17,828 nt of DNA from Chloroflexota bacterium. Its GTDB lineage: Bacteria > Chloroflexota > UBA6077. The position numbers and the translations under genes are program-made. The first letter of the stretch is position 1. Each line of letters opens with the position of its first letter. The stretch lies in NCBI GenBank assembly GCA_021788565.1, contig JAJYKO010000020.1:1-17828 (forward strand), given 5' to 3'. The notes beneath the pieces were generated by a model. It was given only the letters and a program-made list of their open reading frames with translations. It ran no database searches and was not told the origin of the DNA. This document shows positions 4,889 through 16,768 of this stretch, in pieces.

Positions 4889-4910
4889 GTCTGCCGAGGC
4901 TGCCTAACAT
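4881..4910 (+). promoter_or_regulatory. Putative sigma70 promoter of nadABC
   Basis: A perfect -35 TTGACA (4881-4886) is followed after 18 bp by TAACAT (4905-4910; 4 of 6 matches to TATAAT). Transcription would start near 4917, about 43 nt before the chosen nadA ATG. The ATG at 4909 overlaps the -10 element, which argues against it as the translation start. Confidence 0.6.
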
Positions 4911-4959
4911 GCGCCGACCAACCGACGCATGCTCAGCCCGTCATGGCTCTGGAGGTCCC

Positions 4960-6165
4960 ATGGACACTACTACAGGAGCGTACGCAGACCTTTCCGATAT
5001 CACCTCAACACCGTGCGATACCCCCGTCCCCCAACAGCCTGCCCCATCAATCTTCGGTACCGCGGGCTCCCGCACACCTCCCCTTCAGACCCCGCTGCCG
5101 GACCAATATTGGCAGTTGACCGACGCGGAGCTAGCCGACCGCATCGGCGCGGCTCGATCGGCGCTCGGGCCGAGCGCCGTGATCCTCGGCCATCACTACC
5201 AGCGCGATGAAATCGTCAGGTTCGCCGACTTTCTGGGCGATTCTTTCAAGCTCTCGATGCAGGCAGCCTCCCGGCGTGACGCCCGGTTCATCGTATTCTG
5301 CGGTGTGCACTTCATGGCTGAGAGCGCCGACATCCTCAGCGGTGCCGACCAGCAGGTGATCCTGCCCAACCTCGAAGCCGGCTGCTCGATGGCGGACATG
5401 GCCGATCTGGACGCTGTCACGGAGTGCTACCAGAGCATCGAGGATGTGTGCGGTCCGAGTGTTCTGCCCGTGACTTACGTCAATTCCTCTGCCGACCTAA
5501 AAGCCTTTTGCGGCCAGCACGGCGGCGCGGTCTGCACCTCCTCGAACGCAGGGGCTATTCTGAGTTGGGCGCTGGAGCGGAGTGACCGCGTGCTGTTCTT
5601 CCCGGATCAGCACCTTGGCCGCAACACCGCTCGCCAGCTCGGCATCGAGCCGGACCGGACGATCGTGTGGGATCGGGCGCGGCCTCTTGGCGGCAACGAT
5701 CCCGCCGCTCTGCGTAGAGCTCGCCTGATCCTCTGGAACGGCCACTGCTCGGTGCACATGCGCTTCACGACGAGCCAGATTGCGAGGGCGCGCGAGCACT
5801 ATCCCGACATCAACGTTATCGTGCACCCGGAATGTCGAGCCGAGGTTGTGCTCGCCGCCGACGCCGTTGGGTCTACGGAGCTTATCGTGAAGAGGATCGC
5901 CGAGTCGCCTCCCGGTTCGCAGTGGGCGGTGGGAACGGAGATCAATCTCGTCAACCGCGTCGCGAAGGAGCACCCGGACAAGCTGGTCTTCTGTCTGGAC
6001 CCGGTTGTGTGTCCCTGCGCAACCATGTACCGAATCCATCCGGCCTATCTGCTCTGGTCGCTGGAGAGCTTGCTCGCGGGCGAGGTTGTGAACCGGATCG
6101 CCGTGGCACCTGAGGTGGCACACTGGGCCAGGGAGGCACTGACGAGGATGCTGGAGATCGCGTGA
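4960..6165 (+). CDS. nadA: Quinolinate synthase NadA
   Basis: This [4Fe-4S] enzyme condenses iminoaspartate with dihydroxyacetone phosphate to give quinolinate, in the cytosol. The 401-residue product carries ILGHHYQRDEI (76-86), FCGVHFMAESADIL (113-126), LEAGCSMADMADLD (138-151), VNSSADLKA (174-182), TSSNA (193-197), DQHLGRNTA (216-224), NGHCSVH (260-266), HPECRAE (289-295) and the C-terminal CPCATM (351-356). By comparison with E. coli C113, C200 and C297, the likely cluster ligands are C142, C263 and C351 (C353 is an alternative for the last). The start at 4960 has GGAGG at 4951-4955; an upstream in-frame ATG (4909) lies in the -10 box. About 45 residues at the N-terminus, rich in Pro and Thr, precede the conserved core and look disordered. 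The gene is first in nadABC, with one nucleotide separating it from nadB. Confidence 0.96.
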   Translation: MDTTTGAYADLSDITSTPCDTPVPQQPAPSIFGTAGSRTPPLQTPLPDQYWQLTDAELADRIGAARSALGPSAVILGHHYQRDEIVRFADFLGDSFKLSMQAASRRDARFIVFCGVHFMAESADILSGADQQVILPNLEAGCSMADMADLDAVTECYQSIEDVCGPSVLPVTYVNSSADLKAFCGQHGGAVCTSSNAGAILSWALERSDRVLFFPDQHLGRNTARQLGIEPDRTIVWDRARPLGGNDPAALRRARLILWNGHCSVHMRFTTSQIARAREHYPDINVIVHPECRAEVVLAADAVGSTELIVKRIAESPPGSQWAVGTEINLVNRVAKEHPDKLVFCLDPVVCPCATMYRIHPAYLLWSLESLLAGEVVNRIAVAPEVAHWAREALTRMLEIA

Positions 6166-6166
6166 G

Positions 6167-7843
6167 ATGTACGATTGCATTGTCATAGGAAGCGGCATCG
6201 CAGGGCTGTACACTGCTTTGCTCGCGCAATCCCACGGCCGCGTACTGCTGCTCACGAAAGCTCGACTCGACGACAGCAACACCAACAATGCTCAGGGCGG
6301 CATCGCTGCAGCTGTCGGCACCGACGATAGGCCGGAGCTCCAGTGGCGCGACACACTGGAAGCAGGTGCGGGGCTGAGCGATCCCCTTGCTTCCTGGGTT
6401 CTGGCAGTAGAGGGACCGGACCGGATTGCCGACCTCGTGAGCTTGGGGGTACCGTTCGACCGCGAGGGTGGGCACCTGGCGCTCGGTCGGGAAGGTGCGC
6501 ACACCAGGGCTAGGGTGCTTCACGCCGGAGGGGATGCCACCGGCGCACGGGTTCAAGCAACGCTCGGGCATCTGGTAGGTGAGTCCAGGAATGTCACTAT
6601 TCGCGAGCACTCCCTCGTCACGGACCTGGTTCTGGCGGACGGCGCGGTGCGCGGAGTTATCGCCATGGACCATCGGAGCGGTCTGGAGAAGCGCTATGCC
6701 GGTCGGGCCGTGGTACTGGCCACGGGTGGCGCCGGCCAGCTGTACGCCCAGACCACGAATCCGGCCGTCGCCAGCGGGACCGGGCTGGCTCTCGCGTACC
6801 GTGCCGGCGCGAGCCTGGCCGATCTGGAGTTCATCCAATTCCACCCCACGGCACTGATGTTGAACGGTGCGCCACGCTTCCTGATCTCGGAGGCAGCGCG
6901 CGGAGCGGGCGCAGTTCTACGTGACCGGGACGGTCGCCGCTTCATGTTCGACTACGACCCTCGTGGCGAGCTTGCGCCGCGCCACGTCGTGGCCGGCGCG
7001 ATTCTGACTGAGATGACGCGACAGAACGCCGCCTGCGTATATCTGGACCTGAGCGGTCTCCCGGAGGCCGAGACCCGGCAGCACTTCCCGACGATCGCTG
7101 AGTTCTGCGACAGCTATGATCTGGACATCACCCGGAGGCCGATTCCGGTGGCGCCCGCGGCACACTACGTGATGGGTGGCGTGCGGACGAACCTCTGGGG
7201 CGAAACCGACCTACCCGGTCTCTTCGCCTGCGGTGAAGTGGCCTGCACTGGCGTCCATGGTGCCAACCGGCTGGCGAGCAATTCGCTGCTCGAAGCGCTC
7301 GTGTTTGGCAGCCGGGTTGTGCGACGGATGGTCGCGGGCAGCGGAGCCCCGGATCTGGAGGTGGCGGATGCATCCGGCCCGATGCCACAGCATGGGCAGG
7401 CGAGGATTGTCGAGGATCACCGCCTAGGGCCATCCGCACAGAGCGTTCCGAATCCCCAACGCCAGCCGGACCAGGCAGGTGAAGAGCAGCGTCCGCCCGC
7501 GGTGCTGATGAAGGACGTGCAGGAGCTGATGTGGGCAAACGTCGGCATGGTGCGCTCGCGGGAGTCACTGGAGGTCGCGCAACACCGCCTCGATCAGTGG
7601 ACTCGAGAGATGGACCCGCCGTCAAGCTCAGCTGATCACGAGCTGCGGGCTCTCCTACTCGTCGCGCGGCTGGTGACCACAGCGGCCCTCGTTCGTGAAG
7701 AGTCGCGAGGAGGGCACCGGCGAAGCGACTACCCTGACGAAGATGATGCCTGGCTGCGGCGCGTCGTCTTTCGGGCTCCGGTCGATCAGCACAGATTGGC
7801 GAAAGCCGGAGCGAAGCCCCACGCCAAGGCCCGGATCGATTGA
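6167..7843 (+). CDS. nadB: L-aspartate oxidase NadB
   Basis: This FAD-dependent enzyme oxidises L-aspartate to iminoaspartate, which is passed to NadA. The 558-residue protein begins at once with the dinucleotide-binding motif VIGSGIAGLYTALLA (6-20), then the FAD and substrate loop NNAQGGIAAA (40-49), QFHPTAL (224-230), EAARGAGAVL (242-251), R272 in PRHVVAGAI (a counterpart of the catalytic arginine of E. coli NadB), HYVMGG (333-338), the C-terminal FAD contact CGEVACTGVHGANRLASNSL (355-374), and a C-terminal helical domain from about residue 450. A stretch of about 60 residues (395-455) rich in Gln, Pro and Gly looks like a linker longer than usual. The ATG begins 1 nt after the nadA stop, with GGAG at 6153-6156, so translation is coupled. 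Confidence 0.96.
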   Translation: MYDCIVIGSGIAGLYTALLAQSHGRVLLLTKARLDDSNTNNAQGGIAAAVGTDDRPELQWRDTLEAGAGLSDPLASWVLAVEGPDRIADLVSLGVPFDREGGHLALGREGAHTRARVLHAGGDATGARVQATLGHLVGESRNVTIREHSLVTDLVLADGAVRGVIAMDHRSGLEKRYAGRAVVLATGGAGQLYAQTTNPAVASGTGLALAYRAGASLADLEFIQFHPTALMLNGAPRFLISEAARGAGAVLRDRDGRRFMFDYDPRGELAPRHVVAGAILTEMTRQNAACVYLDLSGLPEAETRQHFPTIAEFCDSYDLDITRRPIPVAPAAHYVMGGVRTNLWGETDLPGLFACGEVACTGVHGANRLASNSLLEALVFGSRVVRRMVAGSGAPDLEVADASGPMPQHGQARIVEDHRLGPSAQSVPNPQRQPDQAGEEQRPPAVLMKDVQELMWANVGMVRSRESLEVAQHRLDQWTREMDPPSSSADHELRALLLVARLVTTAALVREESRGGHRRSDYPDEDDAWLRRVVFRAPVDQHRLAKAGAKPHAKARID

Positions 7844-7872
7844 ACGAAATATCCCCGATGGAGGAGGCCGCG

Positions 7873-8736
7873 ATGATCCCCGAACCGGCGCTGGTGAAAC
7901 GCATAGTCGATGGTGCGCTCGCCGAAGATCTCGCCTGGGGCGATCTCACCACCGATAGCCTGGTCGATCCCGGGCAGACCGGCGTTGGCCGGCTGGTCGC
8001 CAAACAGGACGGCGTTCTCGCCGGGATCGATGTAGCTGCACTGGTTTTCACGCGGAACGATCCGACCCTCGAGACAGAGATAGTGGTCGCGGACGGTTCC
8101 CGCGTTACTCCTCATACGACGCTGGCCATCGTGCGTGGCCGCGTGGCAAGCATTCTCAGGGCCGAGCGCGTCAGCTTGAACTTTGTCCAACGCATGAGTG
8201 GCATCGCGACGATGACAGCGAGCTACGTGGCGGCGACGGAGGGCACCTCCGCGCGAATCGTCGACACACGCAAGACCACGCCCGGACTACGTGTCCTCGA
8301 AAAGTACGCCGTCCGCGTGGGTGGTGCCGCCAATCACCGCTTCTGTCTCAGCGACGGCGTTCTGATCAAGGACAATCACCTCGCCGCCTTGCGTGCTCGC
8401 GGTCGCGGGCTAAAGGAAGCGGTGGCCCTCGCTCGTGCGGGCGTGCCCCACATGGTGAGGATCGAGGTTGAGGTCGAGTCGCTGGAGGAGGCGCGGGAGG
8501 CGCTGGAGGCCGGCGCCGACGCAATCCTGCTCGACAACATGAGCCCCGAGGAGATGCGGCGGTGCGTGGATCTGATCGGCGGGCGGGCCATGACCGAAGC
8601 CTCCGGCGGGATCACTCTGGCGACGGTACGAGACGTGGCGGAGTCGGGGGTGGATCTCATCTCCGCGGGCGCCATCACCCATTCGGTCCGAGCGCTGGAC
8701 ATAAGCCTTGACCTGGAGGTGGAAGCCGCCTCGTAG
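7873..8736 (+). CDS. nadC: Nicotinate-nucleotide pyrophosphorylase (carboxylating) NadC
   Basis: This enzyme converts quinolinate and PRPP into nicotinate mononucleotide, CO2 and pyrophosphate, the last step shared by nadABC. The 287 residues (family usual about 280-290) contain DLAWGDLTTD (19-28), RAERVSLNFVQRMSGIAT (96-113), DTRKTTPGLR (131-140), VRVGGAANHR (147-156), LIKDNHLA (164-171), IEVEVES (197-203), LLDNMSP (219-225) and SGGI (244-247). These supply the known quinolinate and PRPP contacts (for example R98, K134, R148, H155, K166, E198, D221). The start at 7873 is preferred because GGAGGAGG (7860-7867) lies 5 nt before it. A TTG at 7840 overlapping the nadB stop and an ATG at 7858 are in frame but add only non-conserved residues. 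Confidence 0.95.
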   Translation: MIPEPALVKRIVDGALAEDLAWGDLTTDSLVDPGQTGVGRLVAKQDGVLAGIDVAALVFTRNDPTLETEIVVADGSRVTPHTTLAIVRGRVASILRAERVSLNFVQRMSGIATMTASYVAATEGTSARIVDTRKTTPGLRVLEKYAVRVGGAANHRFCLSDGVLIKDNHLAALRARGRGLKEAVALARAGVPHMVRIEVEVESLEEAREALEAGADAILLDNMSPEEMRRCVDLIGGRAMTEASGGITLATVRDVAESGVDLISAGAITHSVRALDISLDLEVEAAS

Positions 8737-11041: not shown

Positions 11042-11512
11042 ATGCGGCTTGGGATCGCGGCCGACCATGGGGGATTCGACCTGAAAGAGCGCGTGGCCCA
11101 GGCGCTGCGGGGAGAGGGCCATGAGATCGTCGACTTCGGAGCCACGAGCCTGGCGCCAGGGGACGACTATCCAGACTACGTGGCGCCGCTCGCCCGAGCT
11201 GTGGTCAGGGGCGAAGTGGAGCGAGCCGTCGTCATCTGCGGCAGCGGAGTCGGAGCCTGCATCGCGGCCAACAAGGTGGCCGGGGTGCGAGCGGCACTGA
11301 TTACCGACGCCTTCTCGGCCCATCAGGGGGTCGAGGACGACGACATGAACGTGATCTGTCTGGGCGGGCGGGTCGTGGGATTCGCGCTAGCGATGGATCT
11401 GGTCCACGCATTCCTGGCTGCCCGTTTCATTGGAGCCGAGCGCCACAGGCGCCGTCTGGCAAAGGTGGCTACGCTGGAACTGGAAAGGGAAGGGAAAGAG
11501 CATGATGGATAA
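11042..11512 (+). CDS. rpiB: Ribose-5-phosphate isomerase B (RpiB/LacAB family)
   Basis: The enzyme interconverts ribose 5-phosphate and ribulose 5-phosphate. The 156-residue protein has GIAADHGGFDLK (4-15, with D8 and H9), DFG (31-33), the phosphate-binding and catalytic loop ICGSGVGACIAANK (65-78) with the presumed catalytic C66, and DDDMNVICLGGRVVG (99-113). AAAGGAGGT at 11029-11037 lies 4 nt before the ATG, a very strong ribosome site. The His that acts as general acid in E. coli RpiB (H99) appears to be replaced by Asp in the VEDDDMN segment, though H94 is close by. It lies 45 nt after tkt, and its last 11 nt overlap the start of the tal-pgi gene, so the two are translationally coupled. 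Confidence 0.93.
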   Translation: MRLGIAADHGGFDLKERVAQALRGEGHEIVDFGATSLAPGDDYPDYVAPLARAVVRGEVERAVVICGSGVGACIAANKVAGVRAALITDAFSAHQGVEDDDMNVICLGGRVVGFALAMDLVHAFLAARFIGAERHRRRLAKVATLELEREGKEHDG

Positions 11513-14408
11513 TCCTCTCCTGAGGCTGGAGGCCCTTGGTCAGAGCGTCTGGATGGACTTCCTGCGCCGGGGAACCATTTCCTCGGGTGAGTTGCAACGG
11601 CTGATCGACGAGGACGGTCTGAGCGGGGTGACCTCCAACCCCTCCATCTTCGAAAAGGCGATAGGCGGCAGCCACGACTACGACGACGCCATTCGCGCGC
11701 TGGCTCTGGAAGGAAGGACCGTGGAGGAGATCTACCGGTCCACGGTCGTGGAGGACATCCAGCGCGCGGCCGATCTCTTCCGCCCCACCTACGAGCGAAC
11801 CGATGGCGGGGACGGGTTCGTGAGCCTCGAGGTGTCACCGCACCTGGCTTCCGACACCGATGGAACCGTCGCCGAGGCCCGCGAGTTGTGGACGGCGCTG
11901 AACCGCCCCAACGTCTTCATCAAGGTCCCAGGAACCAGGGCAGGGCTGCCGGCCATCCGACAGCTGATAGGTGAGGGCATCAACGTAAACGTCACCCTCC
12001 TCTTCGGGCTGCCGCGCTACCGGGAGGTGGCCGAGGCCTACATATTGGGTCTGGAGGATCGGGTAAAGGGTGGCAAACCGGTGGACCGCATAGCCTCCGT
12101 CGCCAGCTTCTTCCTCAGCCGTATCGACGTCCTGCTGGACCCCATCCTCGAGAAGAAGATGCAGGCGGGGGGCTCCGAAGGCGCAGCAGCGGGTGTCCTG
12201 CACGGCGAGGTGGCCGAGTCCAGTGCCAAGGTCGCCTACCAGATCTACAGAGAGATCTTCGGCTCAGCCCGTTTCCGCGCCCTAACAAACCGTGGAGCGA
12301 AGGTCCAGCGGCTGCTTTGGGCGAGCACCAGCACCAAGAATCCGGCCTACAGTGACGTCAAGTACGTGGAGCCGCTGATCGGCCAGGACACAATCAACAC
12401 CATGCCGCTGGAGACGATCAACGCCTACCGTGACCACGGCGACCCGGCTCCGAGACTGGACAAGGAAGTGAACGAGGCTCAATTGGTCCTCCAGCAGCTG
12501 CCGGCGGTTGGAATAGACCTGGATCAGGCTACCCAGCAGCTCGAGGACGAAGGGGTGCAAAAGTTCGTCAAGCCCTTCGACGCCCTGATGGCCACGCTGA
12601 AGAAGAAGCGAGTCGAGGCGCTGAGCGAGGCGCCGGACCGCGAGACTCTCAGCCTCGGTAAGCAAGAGGCAGCTGTCCAGGGGCGGATAGGGGGCCTGGC
12701 AAATGAGCATTTCGGTGCGCGCCTCTGGCGGAAGGACGCAACCCTCTGGAAGAGCGATCCCCGCGATCAAGACCAGATTCGCAACTCCCTCGGATGGCTC
12801 ACGGTGGCTCAAGCCATGGAAGAGTGCGCCGCCGAACTGGAGGAGTTCCGCAAAGAGGTGAGGGAAGCGGGCTTCAGGCATGTGGTTCACATGGGTATGG
12901 GCGGCAGTAGCCTGGCACCGCTAGTGTTTGCCTCCACGTTCCCACCCGGGGACAATGGCCTGCCGCTGACCGTCCTGGACACCACTGACCCCGCGACCAT
13001 CCTCCGAATAGAGCGGGAAGTGCCCCTGGCCGACACCCTGTTCATAGTCGCCAGCAAGTCGGGGACGACCGCGGAGCCCTCGGCTTTCGGTGATTACTTC
13101 TACGCCCGAGTGAAGGATCTCAAGGGCGACCGCGCCGGCGAGAATTTCGTCGCCATCACCGATCCCGGCTCTCCGATGGTCAAGCTCGCCGCGGACAGGC
13201 GGTTCCGCAAGACGTTCCTCAACTTCGCGGACATTGGAGGTCGCTACTCAGCCCTCTCCTACTTCGGATTGCTTCCCGCCTCACTGATGGGAATGGACAT
13301 CGGAGAACTGCTGGTCAGAGCGCTCAGGATGGTGCACGCCTGCACCTCCAGCGTGCCGGACGAGGAGAACCCTGGCCTGGTGCTGGGCGCAGCCCTCGGC
13401 GAACTCGCACACCATTGGCAGGATAAGCTCACTTTCCTGGTCCCAGGTGCCGTCGGCACGCTCGGCCTTTGGTTGGAGCAGCTGCTGGCTGAAAGTACCG
13501 GCAAGGAGGGCACAGGCATCTTGCCGGTGGCCGGCGAGCCGATAGGCACCCCGGCAGTTTACGGGGACGACCGCATCTTCGTGCTCTACAAGGTGAGGAA
13601 CGAGCCGGATGAGGCACAGAGCCAGGCCACCGTCACACTTCAGCAAGCAGGTCATCCCCTGATCGCCATTACCCTCGAGGATCGCCTCGACCTGGCCCAG
13701 GAGTTCTTCCGGTGGGAAATGGCGACCGCCACGTCGGGAGCTATCCTGGGGATAAATCCCTTCGACCAGCCCAACGTCCAGGAGAGCAAGGACAACACGA
13801 ACCGATTGCTGGCGATGGTCCGCGAGCAGGGTCATCTACCCGAGGAGAAGCCGGCCTTGACGGAAGGTTCGCTCAGCCTGTACGGAGATGCTTCGGCTCC
13901 GACCCTCGCCGAGGTTCTGCGGCACTTCTTCGAGCAGGCGGGAACAGGTTCCGCGAGTACCGATGAGGCGGCGGTGAGCAATGAGAACGCCCATGCTTCG
14001 AGCAGCGGCAACTACATCGCTATCCTTGCCTACCTGCCCGAGACACCCGAAACGGACCGGGCGCTACAGTCCATGCGCGTCCGGCTGCGTGACAGGTACC
14101 GAGTTGCCACCACAATGGGCTACGGGCCGCGCTATCTCCACTCAACTGGCCAATTCCACAAGGGCGGCCCGAACACCGGGCTCTTCCTGGAACTTACCGC
14201 CGACGATGCCGAGGATGTACAGATCCCCGGCCAGCCGTACACCTTTGGCACCTTCAAACAGGCCCAGGCTCTCGGGGATCTGGAGGCTCTTCGCCGGCAC
14301 GGCCGGCGGGCCCTTCGCATCCACCTGGGAGAGGTTACGTCGAAAGGGCTCCGGGAGCTGGAGCAAGCCCTGGAGCGTGCCATCGCAGTGAAAGGAGTCA
14401 GAACATAA
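11502..14408 (+). CDS. tal-pgi: Bifunctional transaldolase / glucose-6-phosphate isomerase
   Basis: This is a fusion of two complete enzymes in 968 residues. Residues 1 to about 370 are a transaldolase: GVTSNPSIFEKAI (42-54), the Schiff-base lysine K141 in NVFIKVPGT, NVNVTLLF (161-168), SVASFFLSRID (199-209) and WASTSTKNPAYSD (273-285). Residues from about 385 to the end are a phosphoglucose isomerase: HMGMGGSSLAP (463-473), VASKSGTTAEPSAF (516-529), IGGRYSALSYFG (578-589), EQLLAESTGKEG (659-670) and STGQFHKGGPNTG (881-893) with K887 near the C-terminus. Such fusions are known in several bacterial phyla. Transaldolase makes fructose 6-P, and the isomerase converts it to glucose 6-P for Zwf. 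Start: ATG at 11502 (or 11505) behind a purine-rich GGGAAAGAG; upstream in-frame codons from 11430 lie within rpiB and are not conserved. The stop overlaps the proposed zwf start. Confidence 0.95.
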   Translation: MMDNPLLRLEALGQSVWMDFLRRGTISSGELQRLIDEDGLSGVTSNPSIFEKAIGGSHDYDDAIRALALEGRTVEEIYRSTVVEDIQRAADLFRPTYERTDGGDGFVSLEVSPHLASDTDGTVAEARELWTALNRPNVFIKVPGTRAGLPAIRQLIGEGINVNVTLLFGLPRYREVAEAYILGLEDRVKGGKPVDRIASVASFFLSRIDVLLDPILEKKMQAGGSEGAAAGVLHGEVAESSAKVAYQIYREIFGSARFRALTNRGAKVQRLLWASTSTKNPAYSDVKYVEPLIGQDTINTMPLETINAYRDHGDPAPRLDKEVNEAQLVLQQLPAVGIDLDQATQQLEDEGVQKFVKPFDALMATLKKKRVEALSEAPDRETLSLGKQEAAVQGRIGGLANEHFGARLWRKDATLWKSDPRDQDQIRNSLGWLTVAQAMEECAAELEEFRKEVREAGFRHVVHMGMGGSSLAPLVFASTFPPGDNGLPLTVLDTTDPATILRIEREVPLADTLFIVASKSGTTAEPSAFGDYFYARVKDLKGDRAGENFVAITDPGSPMVKLAADRRFRKTFLNFADIGGRYSALSYFGLLPASLMGMDIGELLVRALRMVHACTSSVPDEENPGLVLGAALGELAHHWQDKLTFLVPGAVGTLGLWLEQLLAESTGKEGTGILPVAGEPIGTPAVYGDDRIFVLYKVRNEPDEAQSQATVTLQQAGHPLIAITLEDRLDLAQEFFRWEMATATSGAILGINPFDQPNVQESKDNTNRLLAMVREQGHLPEEKPALTEGSLSLYGDASAPTLAEVLRHFFEQAGTGSASTDEAAVSNENAHASSSGNYIAILAYLPETPETDRALQSMRVRLRDRYRVATTMGYGPRYLHSTGQFHKGGPNTGLFLELTADDAEDVQIPGQPYTFGTFKQAQALGDLEALRRHGRRALRIHLGEVTSKGLRELEQALERAIAVKGVRT
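14391..14397 (+). promoter_or_regulatory. Shine-Dalgarno AAAGGAG deciding an AUA start for zwf
   Basis: AAAGGAG sits inside the last codons of tal-pgi with 7 nt between it and the ATA at 14405, ideal spacing for initiation there. No ATG, GTG or TTG in the zwf frame lies between the preceding in-frame stop and 14543. Confidence 0.65.
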
Positions 14409-15925
14409 ACGCGAACGAACACACACACCCAGAACCGGCAGCTCTGGTAATCTTTGGCGCGGTCGGAGACCTGACCTGGCGCAAGCTGGTTCCCGCGCTC
14501 TACAACCTGTGGCTCGACGGATGGCTGCCCGAGTCGTTCGCCGTGATCGGCGTAGACCGCAAGGAGATCGATCTCAACTCCTTCCTCGAGCGGCTGCGCG
14601 ACGGCGTGAATCGGTTCTCCCGCCGTGGCCAGGTGAGCGACGAGAGCTGGTCAGAATTCGCGAAGATGGTCCAGATAGTCGTGGCGGACTTCGCGAGTCC
14701 TGACGGCTACGCGAGCCTAGCCAAACGGCTGGGCGAGCTGGACCAGAAATGGGGCACCCGCGCCAATCGCGCGTTCTATCTGGCTGTCCCGCCGGGCGTG
14801 GTCGAGACCATCGCCCCGCAGCTTGGTGAGGCAGGCCTGGCAGACGATCGGCAGCACGATCGTCTTGTAGCCGAGAAGCCGTTCGGCAGGGACCTTGACT
14901 CGGCGACGGCCCTCAACAGGCTGCTCACCGGTATCTTCGACGAGCGCCAGATCTATCGAATCGACCACTATCTGGGCAAGGAGACCGTTCAGAATATTCT
15001 GGCCCTGCGGTTCGCTAACATCCTTTTCGAGCCAGTCTGGAACCGACGCTACGTGGACCACATCCAGATCACGGTCGCAGAGCAGGAAGGGGTTGGTCAC
15101 CGGGGCGACTACTACGAGCACGCCGGGGCACTGCGCGACATGATCCAGAACCATCTGCTGCAGGTCCTCTGCCTGATCGCCATGGAGCCGCCGGTTTCCT
15201 TCGACGCCGACGAGATCCGGAACAAGAAGCTGGACGTGCTGAAGGCTCTGCGACCCATTTCGGCGGACGACGTTCCGGACATGTCGGCCCGCGGTCAGTA
15301 CGGCACGGGGGAGATCGGCGACGAGCCGGTTCCAGCGTACCGGAGGGAGGGAGGAGTTTCTCCAGACTCCCCAGTAGAGACCTACGCAGCTTTGAGGCTG
15401 TTCGTGGATAACTGGCGTTGGCAGGACGTTCCCTTCTACTTGAGGACGGGGAAGCGGCTTCCCATCCGTGTGTCGGAGGTGTTCATCCAATTCAAACCGG
15501 TGCCGCATCGCTCGTTCCCGGCTTCGGCGGTGGCCGACTGGCGTCCAAACAGGCTCGCTCTTCGCATCCAACCCGACGAGGGTATCCTGCTCCGCTTTCA
15601 GGCCAAGCAGCCTGGCCCGGAGATCACGCTCGATCCCGTGAAGATGCGCTTCTACTACAAGGACGCCTTCAACGTCCAACAGCCAGAGGGCTACGAGACG
15701 CTGCTGCTGGACGTATTCAGAGGAGATCAGACCCTCTTCATGAGGGCTGACCAGATATCGACATCGTGGGCCGCCATAACGCCGGTACTGGAAGCCTGGG
15801 AACGCCACGCGCCCATTGATTTTCCCAACTACCCGGCCGGGACGTGGGGCCCCGCCGTAGCGGATCGCTTGATAGAGGAGGACGGCCGGCGGTGGATTAC
15901 GCCAACCCTCCAGGAGGAGGACTAG
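14405..15925 (+). CDS. zwf: Glucose-6-phosphate 1-dehydrogenase, apparent AUA start
   Basis: This enzyme oxidises glucose 6-phosphate to 6-phosphogluconolactone with reduction of NADP+, the entry step of the oxidative pentose phosphate pathway. From 14405 the product is 506 residues, the usual family size. Conserved parts: coenzyme motif VIFGAVGDLTWRKLVPALYN (15-34), EKPFG (157-161), the active-site signature RIDHYLGKE (185-193), AGALRDMIQNH (240-250), and YLRTGKRLP near the C-terminal domain. Starting instead at the first ordinary start codon (GTG 14543) would give 460 residues and delete the whole GxxGDL motif. The ATA at 14405 overlaps the tal-pgi stop as ATAA, with AAAGGAG 7 nt upstream. 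A CTG at 14444 is the only other option and has no ribosome site. The motif has Val where Ser or Gly is more usual. Confidence 0.9.
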   Translation: MNANEHTHPEPAALVIFGAVGDLTWRKLVPALYNLWLDGWLPESFAVIGVDRKEIDLNSFLERLRDGVNRFSRRGQVSDESWSEFAKMVQIVVADFASPDGYASLAKRLGELDQKWGTRANRAFYLAVPPGVVETIAPQLGEAGLADDRQHDRLVAEKPFGRDLDSATALNRLLTGIFDERQIYRIDHYLGKETVQNILALRFANILFEPVWNRRYVDHIQITVAEQEGVGHRGDYYEHAGALRDMIQNHLLQVLCLIAMEPPVSFDADEIRNKKLDVLKALRPISADDVPDMSARGQYGTGEIGDEPVPAYRREGGVSPDSPVETYAALRLFVDNWRWQDVPFYLRTGKRLPIRVSEVFIQFKPVPHRSFPASAVADWRPNRLALRIQPDEGILLRFQAKQPGPEITLDPVKMRFYYKDAFNVQQPEGYETLLLDVFRGDQTLFMRADQISTSWAAITPVLEAWERHAPIDFPNYPAGTWGPAVADRLIEEDGRRWITPTLQEED

Positions 15926-16039: not shown

Positions 16040-16768
16040 ATGAATATCCAAATATACCCGGACCTCGGCGCCTTAAGCACAGCGGCGGCGCAGCTGTTCG
16101 TCAGCCGGGCAGAGCAAGCTGTCCAGGCGCATGGACGCTTTGCAGTCGCCCTGGCAGGTGGAAACACCCCTAGAAGCAGCTACGAACTACTGAGCGAATC
16201 GCCGTTTCGCGAGCAGGTGCCATGGGATAAGGTGCACGTCTTCTTCGGGGACGAGAGGTGTGTTCCCGCCGACGACCCGCGCAGCAACCAGAAGATGGCT
16301 CGCGAAGCGCTGCTGGACCGAGTCCCAATCCCGCCGAGCCAGATCTACCCCATACCGTGCGAGGCCTCCCCGGATGAGGCAGCGGATCGATACGAGACGT
16401 TGCTGCGCGGCTTTTTCGCCGGGCATTCGCCTGACCTGGACCTGGTGTTACTTGGCATGGGCGAGGACGGCCACACCGCCTCGCTCTTCCCTGGCACCCC
16501 CGCCCTCGAAGAGCAGGTCAGGTGGGTCACGTGGGTATGTCCCCCCTCCCAGGAGTTGTGCAGGGTAACCCTGACCGCCCCAGTTATCAACCAGGCAGCT
16601 GCTGTGGCGTTCCTCGTCTCCGGCGAGGGCAAGGCCGGTGCGCTGCGCGAGGTGCTGGAGGGCCCCCACGCCCCACGCCGGCTGCCTGCCCAACTCATCC
16701 ACCTGTCAGGCGGACAGCCGCTGTGGCTCGTAGATGCAGCAGCTGCTCGCCTACTAAGCAAGACATAA
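16040..16768 (+). CDS. pgl: 6-phosphogluconolactonase
   Basis: This enzyme hydrolyses 6-phosphogluconolactone, the product of Zwf, to 6-phosphogluconate. The 242-residue protein, the normal size for the SOL/DevB-type family, carries ALAGGNTPRSSYELL (37-51), VHVFFGDERCVPADDPRSN (65-83) and LGMGEDGHTASLFPG (138-152), including the conserved Asp-Gly-His. It follows zwf by 114 nt, most of which is the palindromic repeat pair, so unlike the other operon junctions it is not translationally coupled. No Shine-Dalgarno is visible before the ATG at 16040, and the upstream GC-rich hairpin is close enough to affect initiation. It is the last identified gene of the sugar-phosphate operon; gnd does not follow. 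Confidence 0.95.
   Translation: MNIQIYPDLGALSTAAAQLFVSRAEQAVQAHGRFAVALAGGNTPRSSYELLSESPFREQVPWDKVHVFFGDERCVPADDPRSNQKMAREALLDRVPIPPSQIYPIPCEASPDEAADRYETLLRGFFAGHSPDLDLVLLGMGEDGHTASLFPGTPALEEQVRWVTWVCPPSQELCRVTLTAPVINQAAAVAFLVSGEGKAGALREVLEGPHAPRRLPAQLIHLSGGQPLWLVDAAAARLLSKT

Follow-up and report, generated by a model that had tools for sequence, protein, structure and literature searches.

A Likely AUA Start Codon for zwf within an AUAA Overlap with tal-pgi in a Chloroflexota Contig

The window analysed here, a stretch of 17,828 nucleotides (nt) from a Chloroflexota bacterium (contig JAJYKO010000020.1), carries zwf, the gene for glucose-6-phosphate dehydrogenase, immediately downstream of tal-pgi, which encodes a bifunctional transaldolase/phosphoglucose isomerase. 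We consider it likely, from the conservation of the encoded N-terminus, the ribosome-binding site and the geometry of the junction, that zwf is translated from the AUA codon at position 14405 by restart after Tal-Pgi, and that this arrangement is probably inherited within a clade. The features at the junction, numbered from the first base of the window, are as follows.

11505..14408, + strand: tal-pgi, bifunctional transaldolase/phosphoglucose isomerase; start ATG 11502 or 11505; NCBIfam NF007080, 1241.8 bits against a cut-off of 712
14390..14397, + strand: Shine-Dalgarno site GAAAGGAG, in the last tal-pgi codons; an 8-nt anti-Shine-Dalgarno match, 7 nt 5′ of the ATA
14405..15925, + strand: zwf, glucose-6-phosphate dehydrogenase, 506 codons counted from the ATA
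14405..14407, + strand: ATA, the proposed zwf start codon
14406..14408, + strand: TAA, the tal-pgi stop codon, overlapping the zwf start as ATAA (−4 spacing)
14426..14443, + strand: HPEPAA, conserved N-terminal segment encoded between the ATA and CTG 14444
14444..14446, + strand: CTG, rival start, with a weak (4 nt) Shine-Dalgarno match
14447..14473, + strand: VIFGAVGDL, present in the translated zwf frame and presumably the first strand plus the NADP-binding loop
14543..14545, + strand: GTG, the first ordinary zwf start, 46 codons 3′ of the ATA, with a Shine-Dalgarno match of 0

Start Codon Candidates in the zwf Frame

From one stop to the next, the zwf frame on the + strand stays open over 14093–15925. 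A first-pass annotation of this DNA had noted that the frame stays open upstream of GTG 14543, where it encodes VIFGAVGDLTWRKL, and that no ATG, GTG or TTG precedes this point back to the previous stop. The translation agrees, and so does the codon listing: the 104 zwf-frame codons from TGA 14090 to ATA 14405 include no ATG, GTG, TTG or CTG. The sole start-like codon among them is ATT 14153, which lies deep within tal-pgi. That is, the in-frame ATA is the sole nearby start-like codon 5′ of the conserved coding sequence. Further candidates, 3′ of the ATA and 5′ of GTG 14543, are CTG at 14444, 14471, 14486, 14507 and 14525, and ATC at 14450.

Conservation of the Zwf N-Terminus

When read from the ATA, the Zwf frame scores 601.3 bits with NCBIfam TIGR00871 (cut-off 400.6) and contains complete Pfam domains, G6PD_N (1–183 of 183) and G6PD_C (1–295 of 296). 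A start at GTG 14543, which is 3′ of the first strand and the NADP-binding loop, lowers the TIGR00871 score by 50 bits and removes the first 33 of the 183 G6PD_N positions. Such a protein would be a truncated Zwf, either dead or with another role. Had zwf come to be read from GTG 14543, the codons upstream of it should have decayed. The identities say otherwise. Measured against 111 full-length homologues, the mean identity is 73.1% over residues 8–46, compared with 64.5% over residues 47–497 and 56.7% over residues 47–199 (three of 114 homologues, with short N-termini, were dropped from these averages). Judged by its sequence, the 8–46 segment shows no decay; it remains open and is more conserved than the rest of the protein. 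The equivalent codon is called as the start in two close homologues, P0002 and P0006, but four others, P0003, P0004, P0005 and P0007, are called at other codons, a scatter expected where the true start is missing from the calls and not where one new start is conserved. With no Shine-Dalgarno match at GTG 14543 either, we regard translation from this codon as extremely improbable.

The segment between the ATA and CTG 14444, translated as INANEHTHPEPAA, bears on a start at CTG. A profile of the 12 residues preceding the FG of the loop (TG in some proteins) was built after setting the closest six homologues aside: of the other 114, 110 were used, four with too short an N-terminus being excluded, and 101 rows were unique. 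The EHTHPEPAA stretch of the window scores 21.0 against this profile, a score reached by none of 200,000 random peptides. Among the 28,030 stop-free 12-mers in the six frames of the window, one reaches 21.0, namely the EHTHPEPAA stretch itself. In P0026, a homologue with 65% identity over the protein, the corresponding sequence is MTQSIHPEPAALVIFGAGGDL, against INANEHTHPEPAALVIFGAVGDL in the window; HPEPAALVIFGA is common to both (12 of 12 residues). By these comparisons, the stretch between the ATA and CTG 14444 is coding and kept. Since EHTHPEPAA fits the N-termini of the homologues, translation must begin upstream of CTG 14444.

If CTG 14444 were the start, the protein would open directly at the first strand. 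CTG is a near-cognate start codon, and beginning there lowers the TIGR00871 score by just 2 bits. However, the segment preceding it is conserved coding sequence, and its Shine-Dalgarno match is only 4 nt. A CTG start is thus very unlikely.

The Closest Homologues Lack a Called Start before the Motif

Out of 8000 zwf homologues scored, the best 120 were compared. Closest among these listed matches are P0002 to P0007, which are 100, 84, 88, 82, 77 and 76% identical to the window protein; all six have predicted starts in or past the GDL motif of the NADP-binding loop. The called start is the equivalent of GTG 14543 in P0002 and P0006, lies three codons past it in P0004, P0005 and P0007, and falls on the last residue of the motif in P0003. 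Of the remaining 114 homologues listed, 111 begin at least 10 residues before FG; in P0070 and P0103 the first residue is 3 before it, and in P0038, which lacks an initial Met, 2 before it. As side observations, the sequences of P0041, P0047 and P0089 open with L, possibly a sign of UUG or CUG starts, and P0070, P0103 and P0041 group together in the tree described next.

This tree was made from 49 of the 121 rows, without the first 46 window residues. In it, a branch with 100/100 support separates the six relatives and the window from the rest, and short calling takes a single label change. Fisher's test on the short calls (6 of 6 against 2 of 114) gives 8e-9 for rows that are related by descent; because of that relatedness, the tree is the better statement.

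A control was made at the DNA level. An ordinary start is present at least 6 codons before residue 16 in 107 of 109 zwf rows, which represent 99 distinct loci, ten having been fetched twice. The exception is a single gene (L017, the same as L088) lying 3′ of what appears, by eye, to be a dispersed repeat. This zwf, at L017:1-110 in a Thermoflexales metagenome-assembled genome (MAG), likewise lacks an ordinary start ahead of its motif, and three stops are present in another 3′ piece in the same genome. Another locus, L043, passes the control and has a disturbed N-terminus containing X.

These data bear on the possibility that the ATA reflects an error of base calling, as the first-pass annotation considered, or of assembly; position 14407 would then really be G and the overlap a normal ATGA. 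For the window considered alone, a single base suffices. Short calling of the near-identical P0002, which has a residue difference from the window protein and comes from a separate contig of 11,414 bases, speaks against an error, although both could stem from the same reads. P0003 to P0007, with 76–88% identity and from ena, jgi and ncbi sources, are short too and cannot share such an error. Since the called start fails to precede the motif in any of the six closest relatives, the most distant at 76% identity, and these form one supported group, a base-call error is very unlikely. The missing ordinary start looks like a lasting feature rather than a sequencing slip, and its loss probably predates a protein divergence of 24%.

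Shine-Dalgarno Site and RNA Folding

The reported AAAGGAG, 7 nt upstream of an ATA that overlaps the tal-pgi TAA, was found as described (14391–14397 and 14405–14408). With G14390 added, the match to the anti-Shine-Dalgarno complement extends to 8 nt. Matches of at least 7 nt at a spacing of 4–11 nt occur at 128 of 17,228 window positions scanned. There are 79 ATA triplets on the + strand; three reach a 6-nt match, and ATA 14405, with 8 nt, alone exceeds 6. Among the genes of the window checked, rpiB has a match of 10 nt, the zwf ATA has the second longest at 8, and tkt has 6. Thus, the zwf ATA has a strong, well-spaced site, 8 nt at 7-nt spacing. In predicted folds of 71 and 101 nt, the segment 14391–14409, with the Shine-Dalgarno site and the ATAA, lies in an open loop. 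The 41-nt stretch at the start is weakly folded, with 198 of 200 shuffles equalling or exceeding its stability. Taken together, the coding conservation between the ATA and CTG 14444, the Shine-Dalgarno site and the geometry give good support to the earlier proposal that zwf starts at AUA.

A Shine-Dalgarno-like site just 5′ of a stop codon would also suit a −1 frameshift near the end of tal-pgi, giving a Tal-Pgi-Zwf fusion for which no zwf start is needed. Upstream, the −1 frame stays open over 104 codons, but at least 104 open codons are found in 117 of 2000 synonymous shuffles. Moreover, no X XXY YYZ heptamer occurs, in any register, in the final 25 bases leading to the tal-pgi stop. None of 120 Tal-Pgi homologues (the best 120 of 8000 scored, lengths up to 1.75 times the query being eligible) is fused, all being 920–968 amino acids long. 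A fusion by frameshifting is accordingly hardly to be expected.

Proposed Restart at the AUAA Overlap

The proposal is that zwf is translated from AUA 14405 by restart, as follows. A ribosome finishing Tal-Pgi at UAA 14406–14408 would stand on the AUAA overlap. There it would be held by a Shine-Dalgarno helix with GAAAGGAG, and initiator tRNA would restart translation on the AUA. A small clade, made up of uncultured and likely Chloroflexota bacteria, has probably inherited the arrangement. From the sequence we infer that the AUA itself is used, that ribosomes restart there after terminating, that the relatives have the same codon and that less Zwf than Tal-Pgi is made. A lower yield is expected because published AUA efficiencies are low, and it is plausible, by analogy, that the AUA lowers Zwf relative to Tal-Pgi. 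More tentatively, the AUAA may be a hand-over between two central-carbon enzymes that is fixed throughout the lineage, restart keeping Zwf at a fixed low fraction of Tal-Pgi; we put this at somewhat short of an even chance.

If AUA works for a housekeeping enzyme, UAA termination followed by AUA restart would be a usable way to fix the ratio of two enzymes. Common gene callers accept ATG, GTG and TTG. AUAA couplings would be invisible to callers limited to NTG codons, and they are perhaps commoner than annotation shows. A clade-wide AUA start would surface merely as a protein family cut short past the cofactor site, and systematic N-terminal errors in predicted prokaryote proteomes would follow. 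The signature to search for is a set of close relatives that are all short, with conserved upstream sequence and a strong Shine-Dalgarno site at a stop overlap.

Several observations weigh against an AUA start. The ATA lies 16 residues before FG, and the first residue of most homologues lies 14 before it. Rare short calls occur outside the clade too (P0070 and P0103), and for the six relatives the comparison covers predicted proteins. The whole 101-nt fold is no weaker than its shuffles (z −0.41). Finally, AUA is cited as supporting at most 1% of the AUG level in E. coli (Hecht et al., cited in PMC12864459). Unless coupling raises it, that is a very low level for a metabolic enzyme.

The Junction in Relatives and the Gene Neighborhood

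The end of tal-pgi is conserved among close relatives. Tal-Pgi proteins P0243 to P0246 (82–89% identity) end at the same C-terminal alignment column as the window protein, and the Lys-Gly whose window codons carry the Shine-Dalgarno core is invariant in all five Tal-Pgi rows. P0005 (Zwf) and P0246 (Tal-Pgi) come from the same source, both on a contig of 5708 bases. The two genes may thus share a contig, in which case no contig edge would fall at their junction. If the relatives without an ordinary start use the same overlap, N|TAA, N|TAG or C|TGA remain, and the near-cognate start would be AUA or CUG.

Searches for the DNA of the short-called relatives returned only more distant genes. The contig scan for zwf relatives gave none above 64% identity among the best 80 of 180, and in 400 Chloroflexota genomes the best zwf match was 62%, one genome (G091) having no zwf match. 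By class, zwf was found in 1 of 29 genomes in that of G005 (1e-195, 62% identity), in 11 of 298 in that of G218 (1e-195, best 63%) and in 0 of 3 in that of G035 (E 1e-180, without a positive control). With P0004, 0 of 294 genomes matched in the class of G387 (1e-190) and 0 of 41 in that of G239, both without a positive control. Tal-Pgi P0259 matched 25 of 29 genomes in the class of G091 at E 0.001, the best at 62%. Plasmid records gave 264 with a match, every one below 60% identity, and viral contigs gave 41 loci with identities of only 35–42%.

The two genes of the junction lie in an operon-like row on the + strand, in the order tkt, rpiB, tal-pgi, zwf, pgl. The other members are as follows.

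8906, + strand: tkt, with TTG 8906 as the most likely start, from the 696-amino-acid length of the window's own entry, P0122
11042, + strand: ATG start of a gene that we take to be rpiB
16040..16768, + strand: pgl, 6-phosphogluconolactonase, the next gene after zwf; ATG start; Pfam PF01182

The rpiB and tal-pgi genes overlap at 11502–11512, where two adjacent ATG codons are possible starts for tal-pgi. Elsewhere in the window, nadA-nadB-nadC (4909–8736) is syntenic with L178:8358-12232 of G091 at 65–71% identity. This cluster is the best pointer to the class of the host and, by gene similarity, makes the organism probably a Chloroflexota relative of the class to which G091 belongs. The nadB/nadC overlap is TTGA (7840–7843), the TTG being the nadC start and the TGA the nadB stop, a UUG −4 overlap in the same window.

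The Chloroflexi MAG FK_Sedi_B_Bin.63 (G005; loci L006 and L182), which belongs to the same class of 29 genomes as G091, has the order tkt-rpiB-tal-pgi-HAD-gnd-zwf-pgl. The surrounding gene order is that of the window, with protein identities of 57–65% (tkt in part). In contrast to the window, zwf there follows gnd and has an ordinary ATG preceded by GAGGAGG. The HAD hydrolase and gnd genes (assigned by Pfam) occupy L182:4220-6357, between tal-pgi and zwf, and neither is found there in the window. Loss of these two genes may have brought tal-pgi and zwf into direct overlap. The first-pass annotation had derived the ATAA from a standard ATGA by a single G-to-A change. As arithmetic this is correct; as history it is at most a possibility: no relative with ATGA was seen, and in L182 zwf follows gnd rather than tal-pgi.

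Comparison with Known AUA Starts and Coupled Overlaps

AUA starts and −4 overlaps are each known already. Searches of an open-licence collection, from which most subscription journals are absent, brought up no housekeeping enzyme with a clade-wide AUAA overlap. They likewise listed no AUAA stop/start overlap as a coupling signal, and, as a weak search, no zwf with an AUA start. Other uses of the term AUAA in the literature, set aside here, are the enzyme name AuaA and an RNA cleavage site (PMC4701950). PMC9431474 concerns GUG and CUG starts.

The rpoS start of E. coli O104:H4 changed spontaneously from ATG to ATA, which lowered RpoS up to 5-fold (PMC12864459). As proposed for zwf, an ATA start there still yields protein. 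The rpoS case differs in that it arose in a single strain under laboratory cultivation and is not inherited by a clade, and no overlap is mentioned in the part of the paper available.

Restart at gene overlaps is documented, and in 20 of 24 prokaryote groups about half or more of the overlapping starts have a Shine-Dalgarno motif, whose contribution depends on the gene (PMC6728339). NTGA is by far the commonest motif for overlap spacing (PMC12548453). The tal-pgi/zwf pair resembles the NTGA-coupled pairs (PMC6728339, PMC12548453) in the −4 spacing, provided here by ATAA 14405–14408, in the Shine-Dalgarno site before the downstream start and in being co-directed genes of one pathway. It departs from them in the codons. 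The NTGA pairs join an NTG start with a TGA stop; the window junction has no such pair and joins ATA with TAA, outside the NTGA pattern.

The nearest precedents for the codon are in Staphylococcus aureus, in which AUA initiation was observed by ribosome profiling at infC and ccpN (PMC13009471). Reporters with the AUA starts of ccpN and citZ gave about 10% of the AUG level, with ccpN reaching up to 30% in rich medium, and the ccpN AUA start is common to S. aureus and B. subtilis (PMC13009471). The window zwf is like infC, ccpN and citZ in placing a proposed AUA start on a gene of translation or central metabolism, and like infC and ccpN, for which an extended Shine-Dalgarno motif is predicted, in its strong site. 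The difference is in the junction: for the S. aureus genes, the part of the source available describes no stop/start overlap, whereas in the window, which comes from an uncultured lineage, the AUA lies inside the upstream stop, as AUAA.

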